Positions 2,358-39,582 of a stretch of DNA of 39,582 bases are shown one piece after another. Numbering within the stretch: position 1 is the first letter of the stretch; each line of letters opens with the position of its first letter. The notes below the pieces were generated by a model. It worked only from the letters and a program-made list of their open reading frames with translations. It was not told the DNA's origin and made no database searches. Origin of the DNA: a virus. The position numbers and the translations under genes were made by a program. The stretch is from the IMG/VR virus record IMGVR_UViG_3300045950_000315, positions 1 through 39,582 of that record, one strand, 5' to 3'.

Positions 2358-2616
2358 GAGCGCGGTCCTTGTCCTTTAGTGTGGGCGGCATCGTCAGATC
2401 GAGGGAGATGCCGAGCGTTCGGAGCACCTGAAGCACCTTGCCGATCTGGGCCGTGGGCTTGCCTTGCTCCAGCTCGATGACGAAACGACGGTTCGTGCCC
2501 GAGGTGAGCGCGAGCTGATCCTGCGTCACGCCGAGCGCGCGGCGTGCCTCGCGCACTGCGTTGCCTAAGCTCTTGCTGTCCGTGATCTTCATCGCCTTGT
2601 TCCCGAACGGGAACAT
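2347..2616 (-). CDS. hipB: HipB-type antitoxin, XRE helix-turn-helix repressor
   Basis: An 89-residue protein with one XRE/HTH_3 domain at about 14-70 (LGNAVREARRALGVTQDQLA, then a recognition helix around SGTNRRFVIELEQGK). It is upstream of and overlaps hipA, the usual hipBA order. The family binds HipA and represses its own promoter. The first ATG at 2616 has a ribosome site (AGGG, about 7 bases upstream on the minus strand), and its first codons lie inside operator 1. A second ATG at 2592 (MKITDSKSLG) would give 81 residues and clear the operator. I favour 2616 for its better ribosome site. Confidence 0.9.
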   Translation of the reverse strand: MFPFGNKAMKITDSKSLGNAVREARRALGVTQDQLALTSGTNRRFVIELEQGKPTAQIGKVLQVLRTLGISLDLTMPPTLKDKDRAHGT

Positions 2617-2991: not shown

Positions 2992-4374
2992 ATGACGCCA
3001 CGGCTGCCCGACGCGGTCGAGCAATGGCCGATCGCGCGCCTGCGCCCCTATGCGAGCAACCCGCGCACGCATTCGGACGAGCAGGTGGCGCAGATCGCCG
3101 CCAGCATCGTCGAGTTCGGCTGGTCCAATCCGATCCTCGCCGCCGGCGACGGTACCGTGATCGCCGGGCACGGACGGCTGGAGGCGGCGCGCAAGCTCGG
3201 CCTCGACACGGTGCCAGTGATCGTGCTCGACCACCTCACGCCGGCGCAGCGCCGGGCCTACGTCATCGCCGACAACAAGCTCGCGCTCAATGCGGGCTGG
3301 AACGAGGAAGTTCTCGCCGCCGAGCTGCACGCCCTCAACGGCGACGGCTTCGACCTGGGGCTGACCGGCTTCGACGAGGCCGAGCTCGACCGCCTGCTGT
3401 CGCCGCTCGGCGACGAGGGGCAGGCCGGAGAAGACGCAGGCGGCGAAGACGCCGACGAAGCGCCCGAGCCGCCCCGCGATCCGGTGTCGCGCCAAGGCGA
3501 TCTCTGGAGCCTCGGCGAGCATCGCCTGCTTTGCGGCGACGCCACGGATGCCAAGACCGTCGCCCGACTGATGGCCGGCGACAAGGCGGCGCTTCTGTTC
3601 ACTTCGCCGCCCTATGGCAATCAGCGGGACTACACGACCGGCGGCGTCCCCGACTGGACCACACTGATGACCGGCGCGTTCCGCCATCTGCCGACCGCGC
3701 TGCGCGACGACGGCCAGGTGCTGGTCAACCTCGGACTGATCCACCGGGACAACGAATGGGTGCCCTATTGGGACGGCTGGATCGCGTGGATGCGCGAGCA
3801 AGGCTGGCGCCGGTTCGGGCTCTACATCTGGGACCAGGGACCGGCGTTGCCGGGCGATTGGAACGGACGCCTGGCGCCGAGCTTCGAGATCGTCTTCCAC
3901 TTCAACCGCCAGGCGCGCAAGCCCAACAAGATCGTGCCCTGCAAGTGGGCGGGGCACGTCAACGACGCCCATGGTGGCATGCGCAACCGGGACGGCAGCG
4001 TGGGCGAATGGACCCACGCCGGCCAGGGCGTGCAGGACATGCGCATCCCCGACAACGTGATTCGCATCACCCGCCACAAGGCGCGAGGGATCGAGACCGA
4101 GCATCCGGCCGTGTTCCCGGTGAAGCTGCCCGAGTTCGTCATGCGCGCCTATTCGGGCGCGGGCGACATCGTGTTCGAGCCGTTCGCGGGCAGCGGAACG
4201 TGCATCGTCGCGGGGCAGCGCACCGGTCGCATCGTGCGGGCGATCGAGCTCGCCCCCGAATACGCCGACGTCGCGCTGCTACGCTGGAAGCATCTTTTTC
4301 CCGAGGTGCCGGCGACGCTCGACGGCCGTCCCTTCGACGACGTGGCCGCGGAGCGCAAGGCCGCCCGATCATGA
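2992..4374 (+). CDS. ParB-domain DNA methyltransferase 1, predicted N4-cytosine type
   Basis: 460 residues. A ParB/Srx nuclease-like N-terminal domain (about 9-95, with the AGHGRLEAAR box at 58-67) is joined through an acidic linker (140-165) to a beta-class N4/N6 amino-methyltransferase. The catalytic box is TSPPYG (204-209) and the SAM-binding box FEPFAGSGT (395-403) comes later, which is the beta-class order. SPPY rather than DPPY usually marks N4-cytosine enzymes, so m4C is predicted, not shown. Such solitary phage methyltransferases protect phage DNA from host restriction. It overlaps the next gene by ATGA at 4371-4374. Confidence 0.88.
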   Translation: MTPRLPDAVEQWPIARLRPYASNPRTHSDEQVAQIAASIVEFGWSNPILAAGDGTVIAGHGRLEAARKLGLDTVPVIVLDHLTPAQRRAYVIADNKLALNAGWNEEVLAAELHALNGDGFDLGLTGFDEAELDRLLSPLGDEGQAGEDAGGEDADEAPEPPRDPVSRQGDLWSLGEHRLLCGDATDAKTVARLMAGDKAALLFTSPPYGNQRDYTTGGVPDWTTLMTGAFRHLPTALRDDGQVLVNLGLIHRDNEWVPYWDGWIAWMREQGWRRFGLYIWDQGPALPGDWNGRLAPSFEIVFHFNRQARKPNKIVPCKWAGHVNDAHGGMRNRDGSVGEWTHAGQGVQDMRIPDNVIRITRHKARGIETEHPAVFPVKLPEFVMRAYSGAGDIVFEPFAGSGTCIVAGQRTGRIVRAIELAPEYADVALLRWKHLFPEVPATLDGRPFDDVAAERKAARS

Positions 4375-24222: not shown

Positions 24223-25296
24223 ATGACGCTGCAAACCGACCTGCAGGCGGCGGTCGCCAAGACGACTGCCGCCGCCGACAAGCTGCACCAAGTGGTGCAC
24301 GGCGATTCCGGCAGCACCGTTGAGACCGAGAACGGCCCGGTCAAGACAGTGGCGAAGACCATCGCCGACAACGAGGCGGTCATCGCGGCCAGCCGCGTCG
24401 AGCTCGACCAGAAGGTGGCCGATGCGGGCGGCAGCGCGGTGGCGGCCGCCGCTTCCGCCGACGCGGCCTCGGCAAGCGCCGGCGAGGCGGCGATCCATGC
24501 CGCCAAGATTCCCGACCCGGCTCCAACAGATTCGCTCAAGAGCATCCGGGTCAATCTCGCTGGCACGGCCTACGAGCTGGCGCCGGGCGGGGGCGACGTC
24601 GTCGGACCCGCGGGTGCGGCGGACGGCGCGCTCGCCCGTTTCGATGGTGCGACCGGCAAGCTCTTGAAGGCCGGCGGGCCGGCCCAGACCAGCGAGATCG
24701 CAGACGGCGCCGTCACCACGGCGAAGCTTGCCGACGGGGCGGTGACGGCGGACAAAATCGCCCCCGGCGCGGTCGACCTCACGACGAGGGTCGCCAAGGC
24801 CGGCGACGCGATGACGGGCGATCTTTCGCTTCCAAACCTGATCGCGAGCGGCACCGTGCGCTCGGGCGCTGCCGGCGACGATGCCCGCTCGACCGGATTC
24901 AAGATCGCCGACGGCACGGACATCGGCGAACTCAACCGCTCGAACCAGTACTACGACGACCGGGTCAACAACTGCTCAGGCTATCTCCCCAACGGCAACT
25001 GCCTGGGCGACCCGCAGTGGACGCCGCCCGACGGCAACTGGTGGACCTGGGGGCTCGGCTTCTCCCCCGGGAACCCCAGCGGCTACGACTTCGCCGGCGG
25101 CCAGCAGGTCACCAACCAGCCGGTCTCGGTCGGCTTCGTCTACGGCTCCTACGCGCTTGCCGCCGACGAGATCGGCGGGGCCGAGCACCGGCGCAACTAC
25201 AACAACTGCAACTGCGGCGGGTTCAACTGCTACTCCAACTGCAATTGCAACTGCAATTGCGCCTGCGACTGCAACTGCGCCTGCGGCGACGGGTGA
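24223..25296 (+). CDS. Tail-fibre-like protein with Asn/Cys-rich C-terminal tail, probable radical SAM substrate
   Basis: 357 residues from ATG 24223 (GGAG about ten bases upstream). An N-terminal attachment-type region with helix (1-95) comes first. Next is a fibre part with GPAGAADGALARFDGATGKLLKAGG and short repeats (DGAVTTAKLADGAVTADKIAPGAV), then AKAGDAMTGDLSLPNLIASGTV, a common fibre motif. A Gly/Asn/Trp-rich domain follows (230-320; NNCSGYLPNGNCLG, PDGNWWTWGLGFSPGNPSGYD). The last 33 residues contain 11 Cys and 11 Asn, largely alternating. No signal peptide or cleavage site is visible. The next three genes follow closely and include two radical SAM/SPASM enzymes, so the tail is the likely substrate. 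Modification is an inference; metal binding by the Cys run is the alternative. Confidence 0.82.
   Translation: MTLQTDLQAAVAKTTAAADKLHQVVHGDSGSTVETENGPVKTVAKTIADNEAVIAASRVELDQKVADAGGSAVAAAASADAASASAGEAAIHAAKIPDPAPTDSLKSIRVNLAGTAYELAPGGGDVVGPAGAADGALARFDGATGKLLKAGGPAQTSEIADGAVTTAKLADGAVTADKIAPGAVDLTTRVAKAGDAMTGDLSLPNLIASGTVRSGAAGDDARSTGFKIADGTDIGELNRSNQYYDDRVNNCSGYLPNGNCLGDPQWTPPDGNWWTWGLGFSPGNPSGYDFAGGQQVTNQPVSVGFVYGSYALAADEIGGAEHRRNYNNCNCGGFNCYSNCNCNCNCACDCNCACGDG
25195..25293 (+). repeat. Asn-Cys repeat segment encoding the putative modified tail
   Basis: Codons 325-357 of the fibre gene. Cysteines occur at every second residue from NCNCNCNC through ACDCNCAC, after NNCNCGGFNCYS. At DNA level AACTGCAATTGC is repeated exactly in tandem (25237-25248, 25249-25260), and degenerate copies follow (GCCTGC, GACTGC, AACTGC). 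Two alternating Asn codons are used, so repeat slippage and codon drift both shaped the segment. Confidence 0.85.
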
Positions 25297-25302
25297 TCCG
25301 CC

Positions 25303-26190
25303 ATGATCGAACCGTTCAACCGGCACTTCTTCGGGCTGAAGGTGCCGCTGCTGGTCCTCGTCCTGCGCGAGGCCCGCAAGGCGAGCTTCCGCTCCTTCCG
25401 CGAGCTGCGCTCGGACGTCGAGCATGCCAATCCCGTGACCGCCGACGAGGCGAAGCGCCTGGTCGCGGCCCACGCCGCGCCATGGCCGTCGGTCCTCTAT
25501 CCGCGGCGCGCCATTCCGGGTGGACTCCTGAGCAAGCGGCTCAAGGACCGCGTCTACGAGGAGCTGGGCGGGGTCTGCCTCGACCTCGACGGCATGCTGG
25601 GCAAGGGAGAGTGGACCGACCGCGCCAACTGGGTGTTTCCGCTCGACCGCGCCGGGATTCCTCTCGCACCCTTCAACCGCTACGTGGCCTCGCGCGAGAC
25701 CAAGGCCCGCACGCCGAGGCTGCTCGCGCTCGCCGACCGCAACTGCTCGCTTCAGGTCTACGTGCCGTTCGCCTCCTGCGATCTCGACGGCTGCAGCTTC
25801 AGCATTGCGCTGCACCCGGACCACGGCCTGATCGGAAATCTCGATCCAGGCACGGAGGTCGCCTACGAGGAGGTGCTGGCGGGCGCGCAGCAGGCGTTTC
25901 CGGGCATCGCGCTTTCGACCGACACCCTCGACCTCGCGCCCGATGCTTACGCGATCGTGACCGCGAGGCTTGTGACCTCGGCCGGCAAGCCGATCCGGGA
26001 CGCGGACGCCGAGCTCTACCTGGAGCATACGGGCGGCTATCTCCCCAAGCTCCGCGTGACGACCATGGACGGGGAGGCCCGGTTTCGGGTCGGCGCGCTC
26101 GGGCTCGAACCGGGCGATTCGTTCCGGGTCAAGGCGGGCTTCCGGCACTACTCGGGCGTCGCCGAGCTCGCCTTCCGGGTGGTCGGATGA
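25303..26190 (+). CDS. Unknown protein with Ig-like C-terminal domain, in the radical SAM cluster
   Basis: 295 residues, six bases after the fibre stop and overlapping the next gene by ATGA. The N-terminal part (1-110) is basic and helical (FGLKVPLLVLVLREARKASFRSFREL). The middle (110-215) has RNCSLQVYVPFASCDLDGCSFSIAL with a Cys trio. The last 80 residues (ARLVTSAGKPIRDADAELYLEHTGGYLPKLRVTTMDGEARFRVGAL) read as a bacterial Ig-like or carboxypeptidase-regulatory beta-sandwich. It could be a virion component next to the fibre, or a partner presenting the substrate to the maturases. I do not recognise a named family. Confidence 0.65.
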   Translation: MIEPFNRHFFGLKVPLLVLVLREARKASFRSFRELRSDVEHANPVTADEAKRLVAAHAAPWPSVLYPRRAIPGGLLSKRLKDRVYEELGGVCLDLDGMLGKGEWTDRANWVFPLDRAGIPLAPFNRYVASRETKARTPRLLALADRNCSLQVYVPFASCDLDGCSFSIALHPDHGLIGNLDPGTEVAYEEVLAGAQQAFPGIALSTDTLDLAPDAYAIVTARLVTSAGKPIRDADAELYLEHTGGYLPKLRVTTMDGEARFRVGALGLEPGDSFRVKAGFRHYSGVAELAFRVVG

Positions 26191-27218
26191 CGCGTCGGCT
26201 CAACATCTTCCTCGGCTACGCCTGCAACTTCTCCTGCGGCTACTGCCTGCAGGAGATGGGCGCCCCCGACGCGGTCAGGCGCGCCCATCCCGTCGAGCCC
26301 TTCATCGAGCGGGTGGTTCCGTTCGTGAGGGAGCACGGCATCCGGCGCGTCGACTACTGGGGCGGCGAGCCGCTCCTCTATTGGGACAGGATCGCGGCGA
26401 TCCACTCGGCGTTCGTGGAAGCCGGCATCGCCTTCGACTTCGTCCGCATCACCACCAACGGCAGCCTGCTCGCGCCCGAGCACGTCGACCGGCTCAACGA
26501 GTGGGGCATGCATGTCGTCGTGAGCGATCACGGCGCCTTCGGCCAGCCCAACTGGGACATGGTGCGGCGCTTGCGCCGCTCCAGCGTGTCGTTCCTGTTC
26601 ACCGCCGAAACTCCCCGTATCTGGCCGCTGTTCGAGAAGCTGGAGCGGCTGGAGGAGAAGTACGGCCGCCCGTTCTGGCCCTACGCTCATTGGGTCCGCG
26701 CCACCCAGGGCTGCGATCCGCGCTATCGGTTCGACCACGCATCTCTCGACCGCCACGTCGAGCACCTGTGGGAGTTGGCCCGGCTCCGGCTCTCCGGTCA
26801 CCGGCATGCGCGTATCTTCTTCGACGGCCACCTCGAGGAATGGCGCGCGGGCCTCGCCCGGGCGGACGAGGACGTCGAGCCCCTGTGCCACGGCCATGAC
26901 CATCTCTCGGTCGACCTCGCCGGCAACCGCTACGCCTGCCACCACGGAGTGAAGACCGGCTATCGCACCGGGCATCTGTTCGACGGCTTAGGTCCCCGTG
27001 ACGGGGCCGAGCGGGTGGCGCTCGACCGTGCCTGGCGCTGGGTGCGGAGCGAGGACTGCCGCGCCTGCCCGATCCGGAGTTGGTGCCGGGGCAACTGCCA
27101 TCTCTCGCAAACCCACGAGATCGACTGCCGGCTCTCGCGCGAGAAGCACCGCGTGTTCGCGTGGCTGGATTCGCGGGAGAACGGTCCCTCCGACCGCAAT
27201 CGTATCGAGGTCCCCTGA
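26187..27218 (+). CDS. Radical SAM/SPASM maturase 1
   Basis: 343 residues from ATG 26187. The radical SAM cluster motif CX3CX2C is CNFSCGYC (Cys13, 17, 20) near the N-terminus, and the SAM-binding YWGGEP is at 57-62. The C-terminal SPASM set is complete: Cys234-X11-G-X4-Cys251, then Cys291-X2-Cys294-X5-Cys300-X3-Cys304, and Cys314. Those cysteines bind two auxiliary 4Fe-4S clusters in enzymes that install thioether or C-C links in peptides (AlbA, PqqE, anaerobic sulfatase maturase types). No peptide-binding RRE domain is obvious. Three bases separate it from the second maturase. Confidence 0.9.
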   Translation: MTRRLNIFLGYACNFSCGYCLQEMGAPDAVRRAHPVEPFIERVVPFVREHGIRRVDYWGGEPLLYWDRIAAIHSAFVEAGIAFDFVRITTNGSLLAPEHVDRLNEWGMHVVVSDHGAFGQPNWDMVRRLRRSSVSFLFTAETPRIWPLFEKLERLEEKYGRPFWPYAHWVRATQGCDPRYRFDHASLDRHVEHLWELARLRLSGHRHARIFFDGHLEEWRAGLARADEDVEPLCHGHDHLSVDLAGNRYACHHGVKTGYRTGHLFDGLGPRDGAERVALDRAWRWVRSEDCRACPIRSWCRGNCHLSQTHEIDCRLSREKHRVFAWLDSRENGPSDRNRIEVP

Positions 27219-27221
27219 TCC

Positions 27222-28628
27222 ATGTCGGAAACGCTGGAATACCGGCTCGCCATGGCGGGCCGGAACGGATACGTGCGCCATCTCCTCTACCGGCCGCACG
27301 TCTCGGAGCTGGTCTGGGAGGACACGGGCGAGCGCGTGAGCCTCGCCGCCGTCGGCATGGACTACGCTTCGAACCAGCGCGATTGGAAGCCGGCGTTCCC
27401 GGTCTCGCCCGCGAACCCGGCGCACAAGAGCCGGAACGTCCGCGTCCTCAAGATCCAGATGGGGCTCAAGTGCAACTATGCCTGCGCCTATTGCAACCAG
27501 GCGAGCCAGCCGCATGAGGTGCAAGGCGGGATCGAGGACGTGCGCGCGTTCCTGAAGAGGCTCCCCGAGTGGTTCGATAGCGGCGAGCGGGGCGACGGCA
27601 AGGGCGTGCGCATCGAGTTCTGGGGCGGCGAACCCTTCGTCTACTGGAAGGCGCTCAAGCTGCTCGGAAGCGCGCTCCGCAACGCCTATCCCAAGGCCGA
27701 GTTCAACATCGTCACCAACGGCTCTCTGATCGACGACGAGAAGATCGACTGGCTGGACGCCCTCGGCTTCGGCGTCGGCGTCAGCCACGACGGACCGGGC
27801 CACAAGACGGCGCGCGGGCCCGATCCGCTCGAAGACCCGGTCCGCCGCGCCGCCATCCGCAGGCTCTACGACCGGCTGTTCCCGAAAGGACGCATCGGCT
27901 TCAACTGTGTGCTCACGCGCGACAACCGCTCGCTGGTGGCGATCCGGGAGCACATCGGCGCCCGGCTCGGCATCGATCCCGCCAACGTGCCGCTGACGTC
28001 CGAGGAGCTGCTGCTCCCCTACGACGCGGGCGGCATGGCGTTGTCGCCCAAGACATCCGAGGACCACGACCGAGTCCTGCAGGAGGTCTGGTGGGAGGCG
28101 GTGACGGGCCGCTCCATGCCGGTCGGCGCGGTGCGACGCAAGTGCGAGGACTTCTTCCGCTCGCTGGCCGAATCCCGGCCCTCGGCCTCCCTCGGCCAGA
28201 AATGCGGCATGGACCGGCCCGAGCACCTGGCCGTCGATCTCAAGGGCAACGCGCTCACCTGCCAGAACACCAGCGCCGCGACCAGGCACCGCATCGGCTC
28301 CGTATATGGCGCTCAGCGCGCGCAAGACCGCCGCGAGGCGTTCGAGGACATCCGGCTTACGACCGCGCATCACTGGTCGACGCGCGAGGAATGCGTCCGC
28401 TGTCCCGTCGTCCAGCTCTGCAAGGGGGCCTGCCTGTTCCTCGAAGGCGATCTCTGGCGGCAGGCCTGCGACAACAGCTTCACCTGGAACCTCGCCCTGC
28501 TCGCGATCTCGCTCTACTGGCTCACGCGCCTCGTGCTGGTCGAGATCGAGGGCCCGATCATGCGCCGTCCCGATCTTCCCAACCGTATCCCCGTCATTCG
28601 CCAGCCGGCCGAACAAGCCGCTGTCTGA
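27222..28628 (+). CDS. Radical SAM/SPASM maturase 2
   Basis: 468 residues. An N-terminal extension of about 75 residues (YRLAMAGRNGYVRHLLYRPH..., WKPAFPVSPANPAHKS) precedes the radical SAM motif CNYACAYC (Cys84, 88, 91) and FWGGEP (133-138). The C-terminal SPASM cysteines are 328, 347, 391, 394, 400, 404 and 416, with the classical CX2CX5CX3C centre (CVRCPVVQLCKGAC). A hydrophobic helix follows (NLALLAISLYWLTRLVLV). It is clearly divergent from maturase 1, so the two probably catalyse different steps or modify different residues. The extension could be a substrate-recognition domain. Confidence 0.9.
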   Translation: MSETLEYRLAMAGRNGYVRHLLYRPHVSELVWEDTGERVSLAAVGMDYASNQRDWKPAFPVSPANPAHKSRNVRVLKIQMGLKCNYACAYCNQASQPHEVQGGIEDVRAFLKRLPEWFDSGERGDGKGVRIEFWGGEPFVYWKALKLLGSALRNAYPKAEFNIVTNGSLIDDEKIDWLDALGFGVGVSHDGPGHKTARGPDPLEDPVRRAAIRRLYDRLFPKGRIGFNCVLTRDNRSLVAIREHIGARLGIDPANVPLTSEELLLPYDAGGMALSPKTSEDHDRVLQEVWWEAVTGRSMPVGAVRRKCEDFFRSLAESRPSASLGQKCGMDRPEHLAVDLKGNALTCQNTSAATRHRIGSVYGAQRAQDRREAFEDIRLTTAHHWSTREECVRCPVVQLCKGACLFLEGDLWRQACDNSFTWNLALLAISLYWLTRLVLVEIEGPIMRRPDLPNRIPVIRQPAEQAAV

Positions 28629-28634
28629 CCTCCC

Positions 28635-29258
28635 ATGCCCGATCCCGCTCTTTCGGCGGCCATCCGCGAGGCCTACGCCTCCGCGCCGGCCGACGTCATC
28701 GTCCTGCATACCCTGGAAATCTGGCACCCGGCCTTCGTCGAGGAGGGCGTCGCCAGGCCGATCCGGGTGGTGCGCAACTTCGAGGACACCGCCACCTGGC
28801 TGTCCTTGGGCGGAGCCGAGGTGCAGGCCGTGCTGGGCGGGCTCGATGCGGAGGCTCGCCGCAAGGTCGGGCTGGTGGCGCGGCTGGAGGGGGCTGCGCC
28901 GCGCGATGCCGGGTTGCTGGTCCCCTTCGTGGCGCTCGGCTTCGATCTGGAACTGCCGCCCGTCGACACCATCCCGGTGCCGGAGATCGTCGTCACGTTG
29001 GACAACGTCGGCCGCGAGATCGCGAAGCATCTCGACGCCGCGGCCGTCAGCCAGGAGCGCATCGAGGTCATGTACAGGCCCTACCTCTCGACCGACATCG
29101 AGGGGCCGCAGATGGACCCGCCCATGACCATGACGCTCTCCGAGGTCGAGGTGGATGTCTTCCGCGTCACCGGCCGGGCGCGCGTGCTCGACATCGGCAA
29201 CAAGGCGTTCCCGAGCGAGATCTACACCACCCGGAAATATCCCGGACTGCGGCGATGA
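28635..29258 (+). CDS. DUF1833 family tail protein
   Basis: 207 residues, MPDPALSAAIREAYASAPADVIVLHTLEIWHPAF and onward, a pattern I recognise as DUF1833. It occurs in siphoprophage tail tips next to the NlpC-type gene, the place of lambda gene L. The rest (LVPFVALGFDLELPPVDTIPVPEIVVTLDNV) is beta-rich. It overlaps the next start (ATGA at 29255-29258), so transcription continues from the radical SAM genes into ordinary tail genes. Confidence 0.82.
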   Translation: MPDPALSAAIREAYASAPADVIVLHTLEIWHPAFVEEGVARPIRVVRNFEDTATWLSLGGAEVQAVLGGLDAEARRKVGLVARLEGAAPRDAGLLVPFVALGFDLELPPVDTIPVPEIVVTLDNVGREIAKHLDAAAVSQERIEVMYRPYLSTDIEGPQMDPPMTMTLSEVEVDVFRVTGRARVLDIGNKAFPSEIYTTRKYPGLRR

Positions 29259-29668
29259 ACTCCCTTCACTGGGCATCCGCCTACATCGGCCTCCCTTGGG
29301 CGGCCGACGGAGAATGGCCGGACTCGTTCCACTGCTGGGCGCTGGTGCGACACGTGCAGCGCGAGCGGTTCGGGCGCGAGCTGCCCGCCATCCCCAACCC
29401 CGACGACCTGCTCGCCATTGCGCGGTCCTTCCGCGACCACCCGGAGCGCCGGCGCTGGGACCTGATCGAGACGCCTCAGGAAGGCGACTGCGTGCTGATG
29501 CGCCAGGCCCGCTACCCGGTTCATGTGGGCGTCTGGATGGACGTCGACGGAGGTAAGGTGCTGCACGTCGTGCGCGACAAGGGCGTGGTCGCCCAGTCGC
29601 GTGAAAGTCTCGCCGCCCACGGCTGGCGGATCGAAGGTTATTACCGTTTCATCGGAGACGACGGATGA
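29255..29668 (+). CDS. NlpC/P60-like tail tip peptidase (lambda gpK-like)
   Basis: 137 residues. The catalytic cysteine is probably Cys27 in SFHCWALVRHVQRERFG, with His90 in YPVHVGVWM and possibly His104 completing the site. The length fits a single NlpC/P60 domain without the JAB domain found in lambda K. Such tail-tip enzymes cut peptidoglycan during entry. It overlaps both neighbours by four bases. Confidence 0.82.
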   Translation: MNSLHWASAYIGLPWAADGEWPDSFHCWALVRHVQRERFGRELPAIPNPDDLLAIARSFRDHPERRRWDLIETPQEGDCVLMRQARYPVHVGVWMDVDGGKVLHVVRDKGVVAQSRESLAAHGWRIEGYYRFIGDDG

Positions 29669-32007
29669 ACCGCCCCGGAGTCGTGGTGCTGGTCCGCAAC
29701 GCCTTCCGGCCCGAGCGGGACCGAGAGGTGGTGCCGGTGCCCGAGCCGGCCACCATCCGGGACTGGCTCGATGACCGTGGCATCGGGGAGTTCCACCAGC
29801 CCACCGTCTGTCTGGTCAACGGCCGGGCCGTGCTGCGCGCCGAATGGCCGCTGCTGGTCATCCGTTCCGGCGACGTGGTCTGCTTCGTGGCGCTTCCCCA
29901 TGGTGGCGGCGGAGGCGGGGGCGGCGGCAAGAACCCGCTCCGCACCGTGCTCATGGTCGCCGTCATGGTGGCGGGCGTGGTCGCCGGGGCCGCTCTGGGC
30001 GGAGCGCTCGCGGGCGCGCTCGGCTTCGAGGCCGGCGCGGCGGCCTTCGGTTCCGTCACCTGGGGCCAGATCTTCGGTGGCGTGATCTCGGGCGCGGTCA
30101 ACATCGCGGGCGGCGCCCTGATCAACGCGCTTGTTCCGGCGCCAAGCCCATCGCGGCCCTCTGCCGATTGGGGCCTGGGGAGCATCGGCAGCCCGCCGAG
30201 CCCGAGCCCGACCTATTCGCTCCAGGCCCAGGGCAACCAGGCACGCCTGGGCCAGCCCATCCCGGTGGTCTACGGCCGCCACCTGATCTATCCCGACCTC
30301 GCCGCCGAGCCCTGGCAGGAGTACCAGGGCAACGAGCAGTACCTGCACCAGCTCCACGTCATCGGCCAGGGCCACTACCAGATCGAGGCGATCCGCATCG
30401 AGGACACGGACATCGGCAACTTCGCCGAGGTCCAGTACGAGATCGTCGAGCCGGGCGGCGCCGTTGCCCTGTTCGATCCTTCCGTCACCACCGCGCCCGA
30501 GGTGGCCGGGCAGGAGCTGCAGGGCCCGAACCAGCTTGGCGCCGGCGAGACGGGCTGGGTGGGGCCGTTCGTCTCGGCTTCCGCCGAGACTAAGGCCAAC
30601 CATCTCGGCATCGACATCGTCTTCGCCCGCGGCCTCTACTACGCCAACGATGCTGGCGGCCTCGACAGCCGATCGGCGAACTGGGTAGTCGAGGTCCGCG
30701 CCATCGACGACGACGGCCTGCCTCTGGGCGACTGGTTGCAGCTGGCGGCGGAGACTCACTCGGCCGCCACCAACACGCCGATCCGTCTCAGTTTCAAGTA
30801 CGCGGTCGCGCCGGGGCGCTACGAGGTGCGGCTCAAGCGCACCGACGACAAGGACCTGTCGTCCCGCGCCGGCCACGAGATTCGCTGGGCGGGGCTCAAG
30901 GCCTGGCTCCAGGACGAGCCCGACTATGGGCAGGTGACGCTGCTCGCGATCCGCATGCGGGCCACCGACAATCTCTCCCAGCGCACCTCGCGCATGGTCA
31001 ACTGCATCGTGACGCGCAAGCTGCCGGTCTGGTCCCTAGGCGGATGGTCGGCCCCGCAGCCGACCCGCTCCATCGCCTGGATCCTCGCCGACGTGGCCCG
31101 CGCCAGCTACGGCGCGGGGCTGGCGGATTCGCGCATCGACCTTGCCGGTCTCGCGGCCCTGGACGCGCTGTGGGAGCAGCGGGGCGACCGCTTCGACGGC
31201 GTCTTCGACACGAGCATGACGGTGTGGGAGGCGCTGACTCGCATCGCCCGCTGCGGCCGCGCCGTGCCCATCCAGCAGGGGGGCGTGGTGCGGGTGATCC
31301 GCGACAGCCCGCAGAGTCTGCCGGTGGCCCTGTTCGGGCCACGCAACATCGCGCGCGGTTCCTTCCGCATCCGCTACGTCATGCCGGGCGAGGAGACGGC
31401 GGATGCGGTGACCGTCGAGTTCTTCTCCGCCGTCACTTGGCGGCCAGACGAGGTGACCGCCAAGCTTCCGGACTCCGCCGAGGAGAAGCCGGCCCGGCTT
31501 CAGCTGATCGGCTGCACGGACAAGGACCACGCCGGGCGCGAGGGCCTCTACATGGCCGCCGCCAACCGCTACCGGCGCCGGCTGATCTCGTTCCAGACCG
31601 AACTCGAGGGCCTGATCCCCACCTATGGCGATCTCATTGCCGTCGTCCACGACATGCCTCGCTGGGGCCAGGGCGGCGAGATCGTCGGCTGGGACGGGGC
31701 GACGCTCGCCACCTCCGAGCCGCTCGAATGGGCGGAAGGACAGACGCACTACATCGCGCTCCGCCGTCCCGACGGCTCCATCGCCGGGCCGTATCCGGTG
31801 CTGCCGGGGGAAACGCCCTGGCATGCGACACCCCAATCGCCCCTCGATATCGAGCCCTATCTCGGCGGCGAAGCCGAACGCACCCACTACGCCTTTGGCC
31901 CCTCGGACGCCTGGAGCCTGTTCGCCCGCGTGCTCGCCATCCGACCACGCGGAGAGCGGGTCGAAATCGCGTGCGTCGGCGAGCACGACGCGGTGCACGT
32001 GAACTGA
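29665..32007 (+). CDS. Tail tip host-specificity protein, gpJ-like with gpI-like N-terminus
   Basis: 780 residues. The first 75 residues resemble a ubiquitin/MoaD-like domain (VVVLVRNAFRPERDREVV...GRAVLRAEWPLLVIRSGDVVCFVALP). A nine-glycine run (80-88) and a long Ala/Gly hydrophobic segment follow (VLMVAVMVAGVVAGAALGGALAGALG), as in lambda gpI. The J-type part then begins: GNQARLGQPIPVVYGRHLIYPDLAAEPW ... WILADVARASYGAGL ... VVRVIRD. It lacks the long fibronectin and receptor-binding extension of lambda J, so host binding may rest on the fibre encoded at 24223. Confidence 0.88.
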   Translation: MNRPGVVVLVRNAFRPERDREVVPVPEPATIRDWLDDRGIGEFHQPTVCLVNGRAVLRAEWPLLVIRSGDVVCFVALPHGGGGGGGGGKNPLRTVLMVAVMVAGVVAGAALGGALAGALGFEAGAAAFGSVTWGQIFGGVISGAVNIAGGALINALVPAPSPSRPSADWGLGSIGSPPSPSPTYSLQAQGNQARLGQPIPVVYGRHLIYPDLAAEPWQEYQGNEQYLHQLHVIGQGHYQIEAIRIEDTDIGNFAEVQYEIVEPGGAVALFDPSVTTAPEVAGQELQGPNQLGAGETGWVGPFVSASAETKANHLGIDIVFARGLYYANDAGGLDSRSANWVVEVRAIDDDGLPLGDWLQLAAETHSAATNTPIRLSFKYAVAPGRYEVRLKRTDDKDLSSRAGHEIRWAGLKAWLQDEPDYGQVTLLAIRMRATDNLSQRTSRMVNCIVTRKLPVWSLGGWSAPQPTRSIAWILADVARASYGAGLADSRIDLAGLAALDALWEQRGDRFDGVFDTSMTVWEALTRIARCGRAVPIQQGGVVRVIRDSPQSLPVALFGPRNIARGSFRIRYVMPGEETADAVTVEFFSAVTWRPDEVTAKLPDSAEEKPARLQLIGCTDKDHAGREGLYMAAANRYRRRLISFQTELEGLIPTYGDLIAVVHDMPRWGQGGEIVGWDGATLATSEPLEWAEGQTHYIALRRPDGSIAGPYPVLPGETPWHATPQSPLDIEPYLGGEAERTHYAFGPSDAWSLFARVLAIRPRGERVEIACVGEHDAVHVN

Positions 32008-33469: not shown

Positions 33470-36466
33470 TTAACCAGGTTTCTTCGCCGTATGGGCGCTG
33501 TTGAGAACGTCCTCGACTGAGCGTGCCACGATGTACTCGGCCGGCGATGCGCTCACGCGCAAGGCATTGAAGTGCGCCCTGCCACAGGCGATTTTCGCGC
33601 CTTCGCGGTCGCGTAGGTCGTCGACGAACAAGCTGCTCTTCGTCTCCACGACAAAATAAAGCCGCTCGCCGGCATCGGTCTGAATGAGCACCGCCCAGTC
33701 CGGATTATAGCTGCCCAGCGGCGTGGGAACTGTAAACCAGCCGGGAAGCTTGGCGTAGACCTTGACAGCTTCATTCTTCTCCAGCCCGTCCGCAAAGGTG
33801 GCCTCGGTATCGGAGTCGTAAACCACCTGCTCGTAGACCGATTTCTTCGTCTCGGCGAGCATGTTCTTCAGATAGCCGGTCAGTTCCTCCCGCTCGAACA
33901 GCTCCTGCGCGTAGTAATACTCGTCGCCCAGGCGTTGGTATTTAATACCGTCCACCACGGCGAGCCGTTTGCAGCGGGTGATCGCCTCGGCGGCCAGTTC
34001 GATGAACTGCTGTGGGTTGCGCTTGAAGTCGTCGATCCGCCCGCTGCCAACGAGGACGCGGTGGATGGTGCGGCGCGTGAGCTGCGTGCGGTCCTGCAGG
34101 TCGGTGAGCAGGTCAGGGAGCTCAATATCGGACTCGTCAAGCAGAACGGTCGCCGCTCCCTCGCGCTCCGTAGCCTCCACACCCGCCTTGCCGATGGCGA
34201 TTTCAGCCTTGCGCCATTGCAGGCGCGTCTTGACGATGGGCGGCGCATCTTTCAAAGCACGGATGCAGCTCTCGATCAGCTTCTCGTTGTCGAACTTCAC
34301 CCTGTATGTGGTCTTGTGCTTGATGCGGTCCCACAGCGCTTTGAACTCGGGGCTGAGCAGCACTTCCTTGCGGACTCGCACCTGCTGGCGCTCGTCGGCG
34401 TTCTTGATCTCCAACCGGCCGGAGAGCTTGCGGAGAATATCGGCGATCTGGCCGAGCTGCCCCTTGAACGGTTCGGGGACGGTAAGCGTCCCATCTTTCA
34501 GTGCCTTCCTCAATGAGTCCTGCACCTTCCCCTTGGCGTCGATGTGGCCCGCCGCCTTGAGGTGCTCCCACAGCACCTTCGATTGCTCAAAGCCTAGCGG
34601 CGCTGCCTTGCCGTCCTCGCCCGTCACGGCGATCGCGGCGAACTGGTGCGCCTCCACAATGCCGAAGCGGATGCCGGTGTCGGCCTCGATTTCCTTCTGC
34701 AGGTTCTCGGCGAATTGCTCGAAGCGTTCGGTGGCGATGACCGTGAGCGTGTTGACCTCGAAGCCGCGTCGCCGCTCGCCGTTCTGGTTGACGCACAACC
34801 GCAGTCCGCGGCCGATGGTCTGCCGTCGCTCGCGTTCGGTCCGAATATCGCGCAGAGTGCAAATCTGAAAGACGTTCGGATTGTCCCAGCCCTCCTTTAG
34901 GGCCGAGTGGGAAAAAATAAACTTGAGCGGGGTCTCGAAACTCAGGAGCTTTTCCTTCTCCTTCATGATCAGGTTGTAGGCCCGCTCCGCGTTGTCGCGG
35001 TTGGCCTGGGTATTGTCCTCGGTGTCGGTCCAGCCCCCCTTCTTATCGATCGAGAAGTAGCCGTTGTGGACGTCCTCAGCTGCGCGGTCGAGGTCCACTT
35101 CCTGGAATAGGGTGTGGTAGTCCGGGTGTTTGGCCAGCCGCCGATACTCCTCCTCGAAGACACGGGCGTAATCGCCCTTCACTTGGTTGCCATCGGCGTC
35201 GTACTGACGGTACTTCGCCACCTCGTCGATAAAGAATAGCGAGAGCACCTTGATACCCTGCGGACGCAGGCGCTTCTCCTTGTCGAGATGCTCTTTGATG
35301 GTGCGGCGGATCATCTCGCGCTGGACCGCCAAAGCATCCACATCGCCCCAGGCCTGGCCCGGCTTCAGGTAGTGTTCGCCGCCGGGCACACGCAGCTCCA
35401 TGAATTCGCCACCTTTTCCGACGCGGATTTCGCCGATCCGACAGTCGCGGTAGATCGCGCGCTTGGCGGTTTGCTCCAGGTCGTCCCCGTCCTGAACCGT
35501 CATCTCCTGCCGCCGCACCTCACCGGCTATGTCCACATCCAGTTCCACCCTGGCGGAAATGCTGCCGCGCTTGTTGGCGACCGAGACAAGCCGCACGTAA
35601 GGCTTGTTGTGTGCGTCTTCCACCGTGGCCGATGCGACTTCGATCTGTTTGACCAGCCTCCTCTCGTAGGCGTCCACAGCGTCGAGCCGGTAGACCATGT
35701 GGTGCTTGTCGACGTGGGTGGCCGAGTAGCGCAGAGTGCAGAGCGGGTTCATGGTGTCGAGGGCCGTCTTGCCGGCACCGGTCAGGCCACCGTCGACGCT
35801 TTGCGGCTCGTCCACGATCACGATCGGCCGGGTCGCCTTGATCAGGTCGATGGGCTTCTCGCCGCCGGTCTTCTCGCTATCCTTGTAGAGGTTGTTGACG
35901 TCCTTCTTGTTGATGGCGCCGACCGTCACCACCATCACCTGAATGTGCGGGCTGGTGGCGAAGTTGCGCACCTGACCGAGCTTCGACGAATCGTAAAGGA
36001 AGTAATCGAAGGGTGTGCCGGCATAGAGTCCCTTGAAATGGTCCTCGGTGATCTGAAGTGTCTTGTAGACGCCCTCCTTGATCGCCACCGATGGCACCAC
36101 GATGACGAACTTGGTGAATCCGAAACGCTTGTTCAATTCGAAGATACTGCGCAGGTAGACGTAAGTCTTGCCCGTTCCGGTCTCCATCTCCACCGTGAAG
36201 TCGCCCGAGGCCAATGACTCCGAAGGCGGCAGACCGTTGCGAAGCTGGATAGCATTGAGGTTCTTCTGGACCTCATCGTCGAGCAGCGTCAGCCGGTTAC
36301 CGATGCCGAGGTCGCTTTCGGCGAAGGCCAGCGCATGTTGGGCACTCAGTGCGTCACGGGTGACCGTGAATTCCGTCCGGCAAATTTCCTGCCCACGGAA
36401 CAGGTCACAGACCGCCTCGATGGCCTGGAGCTGGAAGTCAAGGTTGGGTTCGAAGTGGAGTTTCAT
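33470..36466 (-). CDS. res: Type III restriction enzyme, Res subunit
   Basis: 998 residues, the normal Res length. Helicase motifs: Walker A METGTGKTY (94-102), DEPQ box in IVIVDEPQS (215-223), FSHSALKEGWDNPNVFQ, and motif VI QTIGRGLRL. The C-terminal PD-ExK nuclease is intact: Pro922-Asp923 in YNPDWAV and Glu941-Thr-Lys943 in VVETKSS. With Mod it hydrolyses ATP and cuts DNA carrying two inversely oriented unmodified sites. It is separated from mod by a PLD-type gene. It is convergent with the phage late genes; whether it is phage cargo or host DNA cannot be told from the sequence. Confidence 0.95.
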   Translation of the reverse strand: MKLHFEPNLDFQLQAIEAVCDLFRGQEICRTEFTVTRDALSAQHALAFAESDLGIGNRLTLLDDEVQKNLNAIQLRNGLPPSESLASGDFTVEMETGTGKTYVYLRSIFELNKRFGFTKFVIVVPSVAIKEGVYKTLQITEDHFKGLYAGTPFDYFLYDSSKLGQVRNFATSPHIQVMVVTVGAINKKDVNNLYKDSEKTGGEKPIDLIKATRPIVIVDEPQSVDGGLTGAGKTALDTMNPLCTLRYSATHVDKHHMVYRLDAVDAYERRLVKQIEVASATVEDAHNKPYVRLVSVANKRGSISARVELDVDIAGEVRRQEMTVQDGDDLEQTAKRAIYRDCRIGEIRVGKGGEFMELRVPGGEHYLKPGQAWGDVDALAVQREMIRRTIKEHLDKEKRLRPQGIKVLSLFFIDEVAKYRQYDADGNQVKGDYARVFEEEYRRLAKHPDYHTLFQEVDLDRAAEDVHNGYFSIDKKGGWTDTEDNTQANRDNAERAYNLIMKEKEKLLSFETPLKFIFSHSALKEGWDNPNVFQICTLRDIRTERERRQTIGRGLRLCVNQNGERRRGFEVNTLTVIATERFEQFAENLQKEIEADTGIRFGIVEAHQFAAIAVTGEDGKAAPLGFEQSKVLWEHLKAAGHIDAKGKVQDSLRKALKDGTLTVPEPFKGQLGQIADILRKLSGRLEIKNADERQQVRVRKEVLLSPEFKALWDRIKHKTTYRVKFDNEKLIESCIRALKDAPPIVKTRLQWRKAEIAIGKAGVEATEREGAATVLLDESDIELPDLLTDLQDRTQLTRRTIHRVLVGSGRIDDFKRNPQQFIELAAEAITRCKRLAVVDGIKYQRLGDEYYYAQELFEREELTGYLKNMLAETKKSVYEQVVYDSDTEATFADGLEKNEAVKVYAKLPGWFTVPTPLGSYNPDWAVLIQTDAGERLYFVVETKSSLFVDDLRDREGAKIACGRAHFNALRVSASPAEYIVARSVEDVLNSAHTAKKPG

Positions 36467-36503: not shown

Positions 36504-37580
36504 TTAATACCAACCGTAGGATCGGGTCGACGTTCTACCCCACGTTCCCAGCGCAGCAGAACGACCAACGATTTCGCTCGCGTCGGCTCCCGGCTTGAGA
36601 AGCCGTATTCGCAACGGCGCGCCGCCTGGCGGACCCTGTTCAACAATTGCGAGCCCATCTTTATGCGCTCGTGCCCACGCCACTCCAGGGACCTCGTTTG
36701 GAACATTGAAGCGAAACATGCCGTTGTGTTTGTAGAACTTGTACTGCATAGAACGCGTGTTCCCATCATCAGGGCAGTAGACGTCGATTCGTCCATCCGC
36801 CTGAACGTGGGCGCGAATTAGCTGACTGACGACCTTGCCCGCGTTTCTCGGGAACTCAACCTGAAAGCGATACTCACCGGTAAACGACTGAAGCCCTGCC
36901 CACGCGGCAGCAGCGAAGTCAGCACGGAGTGCCGGCCGGGCAGGAGGCTTCTGCCTCTGTAGATCAATCGGCTTGGACGGAACAGGCCGCGAATCGTTGA
37001 TCCCTAAATCGGTCAATTCGGATATTGTTCTGCGTCGCGTATGCTCAGCAAATCTTGCGGCGTAGTGGCGGAGTTCAGCATCGGTCGCTGGAACGGCAGA
37101 GTTCCACAGCTCTGCAAAAGCGTCCGAAGCTGATACCAGACAGCCTTCGGCGTCTGCCACGAGACCACACTCAACATTCTTGCTCAATCCGCCGATTGTA
37201 AGGTTTGAGGAGCCGACGTACATTGAGCACAATTTTCGGATTGTCCCGTTTCGGGAAAATTTCTGACCGGCCACGATAAGCTTCGGATGGAATATCCCTA
37301 CAAGGGGCCTTCCTAGGCGAATACTCCAGCCTTGGTCTCGCGCCGTATATAGCGCTTCCGGGTGAGTAACGGCGTTGTCGGTTCCGGCGATCAGTCGACA
37401 CTCTGGGTTTCCGCATCGCCGCAAAATCTCAATAACTCGTTGCACTCCTTCGACGGATACAAAGGCTGCAGCGATTCCGACGACACGCGGCCGCTCGCGG
37501 ACAAATGATAAGCGCAGCATGTCCCCATGTTGTCTATCCCCAGCGCCGCTCAGTACGATTTGCTGTGTCATCTGTTCCAC
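36504..37580 (-). CDS. PLD-family (HKD) nuclease-like protein within the type III operon
   Basis: 358 residues from GTG 37580; an ATG at 37571 is nearly as good. The PLD half-site is His98-X-Lys100 in IFHPKLIV, then GSSNLT (123-128) and Glu137 in NVECGL, as in BfiI/NgoFVII-type restriction nucleases that dimerise to form one active site. The C-terminal half (230-358; RFQVEFPRNAGKVVSQLIRAHVQADGRIDVYCPDDG) may bind DNA. Gaps of 94 and 37 bases separate it from mod and res on the same strand, so co-transcription is likely. Its base composition is more A/T-rich than res and mod. It could be an accessory nuclease or an inserted defence gene. Confidence 0.8.
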   Translation of the reverse strand: MEQMTQQIVLSGAGDRQHGDMLRLSFVRERPRVVGIAAAFVSVEGVQRVIEILRRCGNPECRLIAGTDNAVTHPEALYTARDQGWSIRLGRPLVGIFHPKLIVAGQKFSRNGTIRKLCSMYVGSSNLTIGGLSKNVECGLVADAEGCLVSASDAFAELWNSAVPATDAELRHYAARFAEHTRRRTISELTDLGINDSRPVPSKPIDLQRQKPPARPALRADFAAAAWAGLQSFTGEYRFQVEFPRNAGKVVSQLIRAHVQADGRIDVYCPDDGNTRSMQYKFYKHNGMFRFNVPNEVPGVAWARAHKDGLAIVEQGPPGGAPLRIRLLKPGADASEIVGRSAALGTWGRTSTRSYGWY

Positions 37581-37674: not shown

Positions 37675-39582
37675 TTACAGACTCCGCAGGATGACGAGTC
37701 CGTACTGCTGCAGAATTGCCACAAGGTTGGTCTTAACCACGTCGTCGGCGAAGGCGCTGTCGCGAAAAACGCAGGTAGTATCGCCTGCTGGTGCGAGGGC
37801 CTTGTGCCACTCGACAATGCCTAACGCGAGCGGTTCGACATGGTCGCGGACGATCTTCTCGGCTAGGCAGGCGATCAGAACACCGCCGCCGATGCTATAT
37901 ACGATCTTGCCGGCAATAGCCTTCTTTTCGATGGGAACGCAGAGGTCGAGACCGAGCTTGAGTAGAAGCTCATAAAGGATGTCCGCCTCGGTGCGGTCGG
38001 TTTTCAGGTGCTCTACGGAGGCTTCGAGCGTCTGCGCGAGGTTGTCGCGGTCCGGCTCCCACGCCCGGATGTTGCTTGAGGCAAGCTTGAAAACGCGAAA
38101 GCCGAGGTCGCCGGCAAACATCGGGCTTTCGTCCTTGACCTTCTCTCCGGCGCGGCGGAGGCGCTCCTTGGTCAGCTCAGCAATGTTGCGAGGCTTGCCG
38201 ATTTTGTCGCAGAAGTCGGCGGCAGCCTTCTGCCCAGTGTCTTGTGGGTCAAGCGACTCTGGTAGTTGCACCAGTATGTATCTCCGGTTCCCACTATCCG
38301 CTGCGTTCTGCTTCATGACGGCGTGTGCGGTCGTTCCGGTGCCCGCGAAAAAGTCCATCACAATGCCTTCGCCGTCGTCCCCATGTTCGAGCATGCGCTG
38401 AATCAATAGTGTTGGCTTCGGGGTATCGAACACTTTCTCGCCGAATAGCTCCTTAATCTCCCTGTTCGCCTGATCTGTGTGACTCGCATACTCATGCGTC
38501 CACAGGTTGATAGGGGTCATCCCCTGCCGCACTTCCGACAGGAACGTCTTGATGTCTGGCACATCGCGAGTGCCATCTTTCCCCCAATACAGTCGACCTT
38601 CCGCCAAGAGGGTCTCGAAGACTTTCCGTTCGTAGCGCCAGGCTTTCCGCTCAGGGTTGACCACCTTGCCCGTTTTCGGATTTATTATTGGATAGCACAA
38701 GTTCGGACGGCGCTCAGGCGCGACTTGGTTCAAAAATGGCGTCGCTTTCCATGGACCTCGCGGGTCATTGTCCGGATTAGTAAAGCGAGCGTTGGCTGCG
38801 TCATCGCGCTTCAATAGATTCACAGCGAAGGCATCGCTCTTCTGATAAATACAGACATGATCAATGACGGACGTGAAGTCGTCAGTGTTGTTGCTCCGTG
38901 TGTATCGTTTCTGCCACTCTACCTGAGCCACGAAGTTCTCTTCGCCGAAGATATCGTCGAGCAACATCCGTAGTCGAGGTAATTCACCGTCATCAATCGT
39001 GATGAAAACGGCCCCGTCTTTTCTGAGCAACGCACGCGCAACCTTTAGCCTCGGATACATCATGTTAAGCCAGTCTGTGTGGAAGCGACCGGAGGATTCG
39101 GTGTTTGAACTGATCTTCTTTCCTCCTTCTACCTGCCCAGTCAACTCTAGATAGTTCTTTATGCTGTCCTTGAAGTTGTCCGGGTAGATGAAGTCCTTTC
39201 CAGTGTTGTAGGGCGGGTCAATGTAGATAAGCTTGATCTTGCCGGCATAGCTCTTCTGCAAGAGCTTCAGCACTTCGAGGTTGTCGCCCTCGATCATCAG
39301 GTTCTGGGTCGTGTCCCAATCGACGCTGTCCTCCGGACAAGGGCGGAGCGTTCCGGTCGAGGGCATGAGGGCGAGCTGGCGGGCGTCGCGCTTGCCATGC
39401 CAGGTGAGGCCATATTTCTCCGCTCGCTCGTCCACGGCGCTACCGAGAAGCTGTTTGAGCACCTCGAAGTCCACCTTTCCCTCGGTGAAGGCTTCCGGGA
39501 ACAGCGCCTTGAGTTGCTCGACGCTCTCGGCAAGGACGTCGGCGCTTCGGGTCTCGGGATCGGCGGCGGAAAGCTTCTTCAT
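37675..39582 (-). CDS. mod: Type III DNA methyltransferase, Mod subunit
   Basis: 635 residues; the ATG is exactly at the right edge of the window, and MKKLSAADPETRSADVLAESVEQLKALFPEA is a normal Mod N-terminus. Catalytic DPPYNTGKDF starts at residue 122, and the SAM-binding box DFFAGTGTTAHAV lies at about 410-422, giving beta-class order. The variable region between (200-370) is the target recognition domain. Members methylate adenine on one strand of an asymmetric site. The C-terminus (YSIGGGVLIACLAEK, CVFRDSAFADDVVKTNL) is typical and complete. The promoter lies outside the window. Confidence 0.95.
   Translation of the reverse strand: MKKLSAADPETRSADVLAESVEQLKALFPEAFTEGKVDFEVLKQLLGSAVDERAEKYGLTWHGKRDARQLALMPSTGTLRPCPEDSVDWDTTQNLMIEGDNLEVLKLLQKSYAGKIKLIYIDPPYNTGKDFIYPDNFKDSIKNYLELTGQVEGGKKISSNTESSGRFHTDWLNMMYPRLKVARALLRKDGAVFITIDDGELPRLRMLLDDIFGEENFVAQVEWQKRYTRSNNTDDFTSVIDHVCIYQKSDAFAVNLLKRDDAANARFTNPDNDPRGPWKATPFLNQVAPERRPNLCYPIINPKTGKVVNPERKAWRYERKVFETLLAEGRLYWGKDGTRDVPDIKTFLSEVRQGMTPINLWTHEYASHTDQANREIKELFGEKVFDTPKPTLLIQRMLEHGDDGEGIVMDFFAGTGTTAHAVMKQNAADSGNRRYILVQLPESLDPQDTGQKAAADFCDKIGKPRNIAELTKERLRRAGEKVKDESPMFAGDLGFRVFKLASSNIRAWEPDRDNLAQTLEASVEHLKTDRTEADILYELLLKLGLDLCVPIEKKAIAGKIVYSIGGGVLIACLAEKIVRDHVEPLALGIVEWHKALAPAGDTTCVFRDSAFADDVVKTNLVAILQQYGLVILRSL

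Follow-up and report, generated by a model that had tools for sequence, protein, structure and literature searches.

The closest described counterparts of the locus reported here are the sactipeptide and ranthipeptide systems (CteB/SCIFF, PapB, GggB, TrnC/TrnD), in which a SPASM enzyme is likewise found beside a substrate with a Cys-rich C-terminal segment. The likeness extends to the fold of one of the enzymes described below, P0004, which is closest to that of CteB, and to the presence of two radical enzymes, for whose cooperation TrnC/TrnD of thuricin CD provide a precedent (according to the account in PMC12093266). Here, however, the segment ends a large fibre-like protein of 357 aa, P0001, rather than the short leader-core peptide typical of RiPP precursors, and no NCBIfam cut-off of a named maturase was reached by the enzymes. 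In addition, Cys occupies every second residue, and the difference from the CX3D and CX5C spacing of ranthipeptides, pointed out in an earlier note on this DNA, holds. No protease or exporter gene was seen in the cassette within the window, by which we mean the entire 39,582-nucleotide stretch of viral DNA analysed (IMG/VR record IMGVR_UViG_3300045950_000315).

QhpD, with its substrate QhpC, and the anaerobic sulfatase maturase are also SPASM enzymes acting on a protein, and their profiles show similarity to the enzymes found here. Their substrates are enzyme subunits. They differ from the present case in having neither a substrate with a repeated X-Cys tract nor a phage context; QhpD makes single or multiple thioethers in QhpC, as described in the accessible text of PMC8172795. 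Among phage fibres, the HxH iron-binding tips of the T4 gp37 type resemble the tract in carrying alternating ligand residues, but the ligands are His and not Cys, they form separate pairs instead of a tract, and no maturation enzymes are described for them in the accessible part of the source (PMC11705849). Hint/BIL autoprocessing domains provide another point of contact, as a Hint-like domain lies directly behind the tract at 10 loci; this is nevertheless a minor variant, and most fibres, including P0001, end at the tract itself. No published description of radical SAM maturation of a phage fibre was found in a search of the open-access literature. The enzyme superfamily and the logic of RiPP maturation are known; the kind of target would be new, with a proposed substrate that lacks leader-core organization and enzymes that stay below named-family cut-offs.

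In the window, P0001 is followed on the same strand, almost without gaps, by P0002, P0003 and P0004 (Table 1), and the tail genes are of lambda type (terminase, tape measure, DUF1833, NlpC/P60 and gpJ-like). We refer to P0001 as tail-fibre-like on the basis of short PHROG matches, the best being to phrog_892 (E 2e-7, residues 155-185); the tail-fibre matches are short and weak to moderate. The protein had no match in Pfam and none among named phages in a tblastn search (E 1e-5), and its C-terminal domain is common to many phage loci. Elsewhere in the window, a HipAB-type pair near the contig start consists of a HipA-like toxin kinase (1086-2357, minus strand; PF07804, PF13657) and its HTH partner (2347-2616, minus strand), and an ORF at 2992-4374 (plus strand) has a ParB-N domain fused to a DNA methylase, with the next reading frame resembling, by eye, a second copy. 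The other contig end is occupied by a restriction-modification-like set on the minus strand, composed of a type III restriction-like subunit (33470-36466; RE_endonuc, ResIII), a protein whose PLD-like match falls just short of the cut-off (36504-37580), and an N6/N4 DNA methylase (37675-39582).

Table 1. Coordinates of the tract-bearing gene, its repeat features and the genes that follow it in the window
Feature	Position	Strand	Remarks
Tail-fibre-like protein P0001, 357 aa	24223..25296	+	C-terminal end formed by the X-Cys tract
Strict (X-Cys)8 tract NCNCNCNCACDCNCAC	25237..25284	+	From the codon listing; pattern conserved in relatives
First NC block, NCNCGGFNC, preceding the tract	25204..25230	+	NCNCGxFNCxTNCNC is the usual form in relatives
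Two more Asn-Cys pairs in the C-terminal domain of P0001	24970-24975 and 24997-25002	+	
Exact 12-bp tandem repeat AACTGCAATTGC, two copies	25237-25248 and 25249-25260	+	
P0002, accessory protein with Ig-like C-terminal domain	25303..26190	+	Most relatives have it between fibre and enzyme
P0003, second radical SAM/SPASM enzyme	26187..27218	+	PF04055 E 9e-11; SPASM TIGR04085 E 3e-9, above cut-off
P0004, radical SAM/SPASM enzyme, phrog_1802 family	27222..28628	+	Constant partner of the tract; PF04055 E 1e-8; TIGR04085 above cut-off; phrog_1802 E 5e-53
Tail-tip genes behind the cassette (context)	28635..32007	+	DUF1833 28635-29258; NlpC/P60 29255-29668; gpJ-like 29665-32007

The codons of P0001 from 25195 to 25293 read N Y N N C N C G G F N C Y S N C N C N C N C A C D C N C A C G D G and are followed by a stop at 25294-25296, the C-terminus of the protein being NYNNCNCGGFNCYSNCNCNCNCACDCNCACGDG. 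The tail had been described in the earlier note as alternating Asn-Cys; Cys is indeed found at every second residue between 25237 and 25284 (16 residues, 8 Cys), but since X is Asn in five units, Ala in two and Asp in one, the tract is properly (X-Cys)8 and not pure Asn-Cys. No Rfam match and no tRNA was found, and an RNA element was rejected. In 103 distinct tails the longest run comprises 4 to 11 X-Cys units, confirming the expectation that tail length would vary among relatives, and over 630 units X is Asn in 63.5%, Ala in 20.5% and Asp in 10.8%. In these 103 tails, Asn precedes 394 of the 498 Cys residues that lie in this region of the fibre but not in the runs, as compared with 167 of 4373 Cys in the remaining long ORFs of these loci, and the repeated unit therefore seems to be the dipeptide Asn-Cys, with or without spacers.

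An arrangement of this kind could serve metal binding: in a trimeric fibre, the alternating Cys of the three chains would face the axis, where they would hold iron or some other metal in a column, much as His-X-His does in T4 gp37, while the radical enzymes would act otherwise. An extended strand needs alternation to place every Cys on one side, tract length changes by whole X-Cys units, and tail-fibre tips with HxH iron sites are known (accessible text of PMC11705849). We nevertheless regard a metal tip as unlikely, as HxH fibres are not linked to maturation enzymes in that part of the source, whereas the tract is nearly always tied to a radical SAM gene (see below), and the preference for Asn before Cys outside the runs is not explained by axial metal binding. 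His-X-His is absent from P0001, as read by eye.

The carriers of the tract are diverse. The 150 residues preceding it fall into 6 clusters (blastp E<1e-4), representing several fibre types; relatives range from 122 to over 700 aa; and in other viruses the tract also occurs on unrelated small proteins, accompanied by distant radical SAM genes. The common element is therefore the tract and not the fibre. Its longest run lies at most 20 residues from the stop in 107 of 125 tails. Among the 18 remaining tails, 8 have a second run near the stop and 10 run into a Hint-like domain, which starts at the tract end and in all 10 has a Cys or Ser where the Hint nucleophile is expected. For two of these, JWF and 2-1, PF05203 scored above cut-off; seven others stayed below it, and the Hint-like domain of L025 had no Pfam match; the Hint N-terminal block with nucleophilic Cys/Ser is found in relatives only. 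Cleavage by these domains, if real, would turn the internal tracts into C-termini.

Several variants were also observed. In two loci (L045:5209-6063 and L052:5210-6064) the tail is NCMSYCSYCSYCSYCTYCNCNCDC, with Tyr-Cys at every three residues merging into the X-Cys tract. Three tandem fibre paralogues, each with an Asn-Cys tract and one extended by a different C-terminal domain, are found in L080:3333-5562. A downstream ORF in L160:4080-4604 ends in CQxCQGCQ-type repeats, with periodic Cys near the tract-bearing gene. In another virus type (L094:5097-13250 and L103) the tract is carried on proteins of 67-79 aa, next to what look by eye like several radical SAM-like genes and an Ig-like ORF.

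Relatives of the locus were collected from both directions. Scanning IMG/VR with P0004 yielded 440 relatives, the best 80 of which, together with Achromobacter phages JWF and 2-1, make up 82 viral loci, and scanning bacterial genomes with the family profile yielded 116 relatives, represented here by the best 80, from alpha- and betaproteobacteria and a few other groups. The main counts include loci with at least 5 kb upstream, and a locus was scored positive if a same-strand ORF no more than 6.5 kb upstream contained at least 4 X-Cys units, ORFs open at a contig end being accepted. Such a tract was present upstream of the P0004-like enzyme in 53 of 55 viral loci (among the best 80 of 440 plus JWF and 2-1) and in 47 of 63 bacterial-genome loci (among the best 80 of 116), although these are not independent trials because the loci are related to one another. 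Outside the main count, with less than 5 kb upstream, the tract was seen in 16 of 27 viral and 9 of 17 genome loci. The Cys periodicity is thus retained in related fibres that are accompanied by the enzymes, the point on which the earlier note had staked its reading.

The exceptions are few among the viruses: one of the two misses is a locus in which the region is broken up (L028), and the other ends in NCNCNCSNC (L077). The 16 misses in genomes comprise four with three-unit tracts (L222, L231, L254, L256) and twelve without any tract, several of which look cellular and apparently lie outside phages (e.g., L232, L265), while L276 is phage-like and has kept the enzyme and an Ig-type protein without the tract. 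In L232, a Bacteriovorax MAG, the enzyme is located beside a PqqD-like protein and what look by eye like transporter-like genes, in an apparently non-phage setting; Variovorax L265, with other large neighbours, L270 and L275 are also apparently non-phage enzyme relatives without a tract. Runs of at least 4 X-Cys units elsewhere, in ORFs of at least 60 aa on both strands, numbered 4 in 1.54 million strand-bases of the viral loci and 4 in 1.58 million strand-bases of the genome loci. The tract upstream of the enzyme is far beyond chance, and this frame control, in which runs elsewhere are very rare in comparison with those upstream of the enzyme, rules out a chance or wrong-frame origin.

In the opposite direction, a DNA-level scan of viral contigs for CNCNCNC returned at least 120 stretches, and the test set was restricted to matches that share the reading frame of an ORF of 60 residues or more, lie close to its C-terminus and are followed by 3 kb of DNA or more. 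Among the matches listed, a radical SAM gene of the P0004 kind was found nearby for 37 of 38 such proteins, the sole exception being a 64-residue ORF that looks spurious (L185). The other listed matches, mostly short chance frames taken without the downstream-length filter, had the enzyme near in only 2 of 65 cases, and both (L102 and L156) are real tracts missed by the filter. When less than 3 kb was available downstream, 11 of 17 listed C-terminal CNCNCNC proteins had no enzyme in the DNA covered. With 53/55 and 47/63 in one direction, and 37/38 against 2/65 in the other, tract and enzyme each predict the presence of the other, and their association in a conserved module is strong and well supported. 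Achromobacter phages JWF and 2-1 retain the pair, which also occurs in numerous contigs from alpha- and betaproteobacteria and in some MAGs assigned to other phyla; loci L243 and L262 lie in (pro)phage regions of the environmental isolates Limnohabitans parvus II-B4 and Nereida ignava CECT 5292.

The earlier note had attributed the growth of the tail to repeat expansion, on account of an exact 12-bp tandem repeat. The repeat is there, AACTGCAATTGC being present twice at 25237-25260, where it had been placed. However, when the last 34 codons were replaced at random by synonymous ones, 2793 of 5000 such versions had an exact 12-bp tandem repeat as well, so that the repeat is not by itself evidence of expansion at the DNA level. 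Moreover, in 44 dissimilar tails, for all of which the reading frame was re-derived, adjacent Asn-Cys units share the same codons in 25 of 107 cases, against a mean of 36.1 in shuffles that keep the codons of each tail, with only 7 of 2000 shuffles as low; a larger, redundant set of tails with a re-derivable reading frame deviates in the same direction (73 of 256 identical vs 86.5). At lags 2 and 3, units share codons slightly more often than in shuffles (221 and 61 of 2000 reached the same level), and an older 12- or 18-bp duplication may therefore have occurred. The DNA of the tract looks unlike a recently grown repeat, identical neighbours being avoided, and the pattern is maintained at the protein level with alternating codons; the codon divergence of adjacent Asn-Cys units perhaps reflects selection against slippage. 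We therefore rejected repeat expansion as the main cause, given that the 12-bp repeat is expected from the protein and identical neighbouring units are avoided. For the same reason, and despite the exact repeat in the window, it is extremely improbable that the tract is a by-product of slippage without any function in the protein: its reading frame and C-terminal position are conserved over many loci, and it is tied to the enzymes.

The assignment of P0003 and P0004 to the radical SAM superfamily is straightforward. PF04055 scored above cut-off for both, with the CX3CX2C motif present, and in alignments of 16 sequences the radical SAM cysteines of P0004 (C84, C88 and C91) are invariant. The SPASM motif has the form CX9-15GX4C - CX2CX5CX3C - C. 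Its seven Cys and one Gly are likewise invariant in P0004 across alignments of 16 sequences (C328, G342, C347, C391, C394, C400, C404, C416), the pattern can be recognized by eye in P0003 as well, and TIGR04085 is above cut-off for both. None of the named NCBIfam maturase families (PapB, SCIFF, QhpD, nif11 and others) reached its cut-off with either protein, the best scores being 50.9 bits for P0003 and 69.4 bits for P0004, vs cut-offs of 425 and 518.7. The best of these sub-cut-off profiles include the thioether maturases PapB, SCIFF and QhpD, but because they also include non-thioether enzymes (anSME, MoaA and cyclophane maturases), sequence does not fix the type of bond.

The structural model of P0004 (pLDDT 88.7) finds its closest solved fold in the thioether-forming CteB, with Z of 23.5 and 22.6, rmsd of 4.4 and 4.0, and 358 and 356 aligned residues; the next folds by Z are ChlB (20.6), anSME (20.0), TigE (19.3), SkfB (15.7), SuiB (15.6) and the epimerase EpeE (13.7). 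The CteB-like fold thus favours thioethers over epimerisation, although a shared fold alone does not fix the reaction. The first 66 residues are modelled as three strands with no helix of at least 4 residues, and no complete precursor-recognition element (RRE) was seen in P0004; since this region aligns with the start of CteB, the N-terminus may possibly form a partial or reduced RRE.

The genes between the tract gene and the P0004 homologue are less uniform. Clustering of the intervening ORFs gave a P0002-like cluster of 82 proteins and a cluster of 17 second radical enzymes of the P0003 kind, the latter often being replaced in relatives by 2OG-Fe(II)-oxygenase-like proteins. In a cluster of 63, the tested members match the 2OG-Fe(II) oxygenase model PF13759 weakly and below cut-off (E 2e-5 to 0.05); a cluster of 14 matches PF13640, above cut-off for one of the two members tested; and a third cluster, of 19, has invariant H-x-D, H and R without a match to a 2OG-oxygenase model, and is assigned here, from these residues, as putatively 2OG-oxygenase superfamily-like. 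The partner clusters differ, so that the first radical enzyme is the fixed element and the second step an interchangeable one. In jumbo phage FLC6, radical SAM and 2OG-Fe(II) genes are close in gene number, with similarity to RSF1, in the passages of PMC8066314 that mention them.

Such a combination of enzymes brings to mind a change without cross-links, epimerisation in particular, in which every second residue would be converted to the D form, giving an alternating D/L stretch and a pore-like helix as in polytheonamide, while the oxygenases would hydroxylate X. The polytheonamide pathway includes an oxygenase, and its product forms a pore-like helix. Polytheonamide contains 18 D-residues made by the radical SAM enzyme PoyD (accessible text of PMC5808125), and the pairing of radical SAM enzymes with 2OG-oxygenase-like partners, together with the strict alternation and the Asn-rich composition of the tract, resembles that pathway. 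Yet epimerisation would not demand Cys, and P0004 is closer to CteB than to the epimerase (Z 23.5 vs 13.7), which makes this reading quite unlikely.

P0002 had no match in Pfam, NCBIfam or PHROG. Its AlphaFold model (mean pLDDT 90.5) is Ig-like in residues 199-295, resembling a GH2 Ig domain (Z 13.8, rmsd 2.1, 94 aligned), intimin (Z 11.7) and the neck protein of phage Chi (Z 11.4, rmsd 2.3, 90 aligned); on these grounds P0002 was rejected as an enzyme, a rejection that covers mainly the C-terminal domain. The frequency of P0002-like proteins between the tract gene and the enzyme could mean that the radical enzymes target P0002, another protein or a host molecule, and that the tract is an unmodified thiol or disulfide adhesive, as free thiols could bind surface proteins. 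This, however, appears very unlikely: tract and enzyme also occur without a P0002-like gene between them (e.g., L258, L259 and L262, the last with an Ig-type ORF upstream by eye), and the tract is the only feature common to unrelated proteins.

Overall, we consider it fairly probable that the radical SAM/SPASM enzymes encoded directly behind the tract use it as their substrate, in a RiPP-like maturation of the fibre tip that most likely introduces thioether cross-links. This interpretation draws on the two-way association, the complete SPASM signature of P0004, its CteB-like fold, and the presence of thioether maturases among the best NCBIfam profiles; gene proximity is no proof of an enzyme-substrate relationship, and the thioether chemistry itself is perhaps an even bet. 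The fibre would be made with a C-terminal (X-Cys)n tract, in which X is mostly Asn, Ala or Asp, and P0004 would bind this tract before or during folding of the fibre. Aided by P0003 in the present virus, and by 2OG-Fe(II)-oxygenase-like proteins elsewhere, P0004 would then modify the tract ahead of infection, setting thioether rings from Cys to neighbouring X residues. With X as the acceptor, the alternation would permit odd spacings only, such as Cys(i) to X(i+3) in a four-residue ring, and a thioether from Cys to i+3 (Cys31-Gly34) is described for streptosactin in the accessible text of PMC8172795. The matured tract would form the distal tip of the fibre, a stiff polycyclic cap resistant to proteases and oxidation that meets the host surface, and its C-terminal position suggests that it may have a role in adsorption. 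In those cases where the tract is inside a longer protein, the Hint domain at its end would excise itself, exposing the tract as a C-terminus.

More tentatively, and with doubts outweighing our confidence, the module may represent a portable adhesin-tip cassette of tailed phages in several bacterial phyla, in which any fibre provided with a C-terminal (X-Cys)n tag would receive a polycyclic peptide cap from phage radical SAM enzymes and interchangeable oxygenases; some tips would first be released by a Hint domain of the hedgehog type, which might leave at the C-terminus a reactive thioester able to bond to the host surface. If so, the virion adhesin would carry an enzymatically made chemical key, a structure for which we found no description. 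If the tract is modified, host recognition in a large group of environmental phages would depend on chemistry hidden from sequence-based predictions of receptor binding, and phages would constitute a new source of cross-linking maturases for proteins that bear a short tag at the C-terminus. For phrog_1802, a phage radical SAM family so far uncharacterised, the tract provides a candidate substrate that can be tested, and isolated phages as well as bacterial isolates with prophages are available as test systems.
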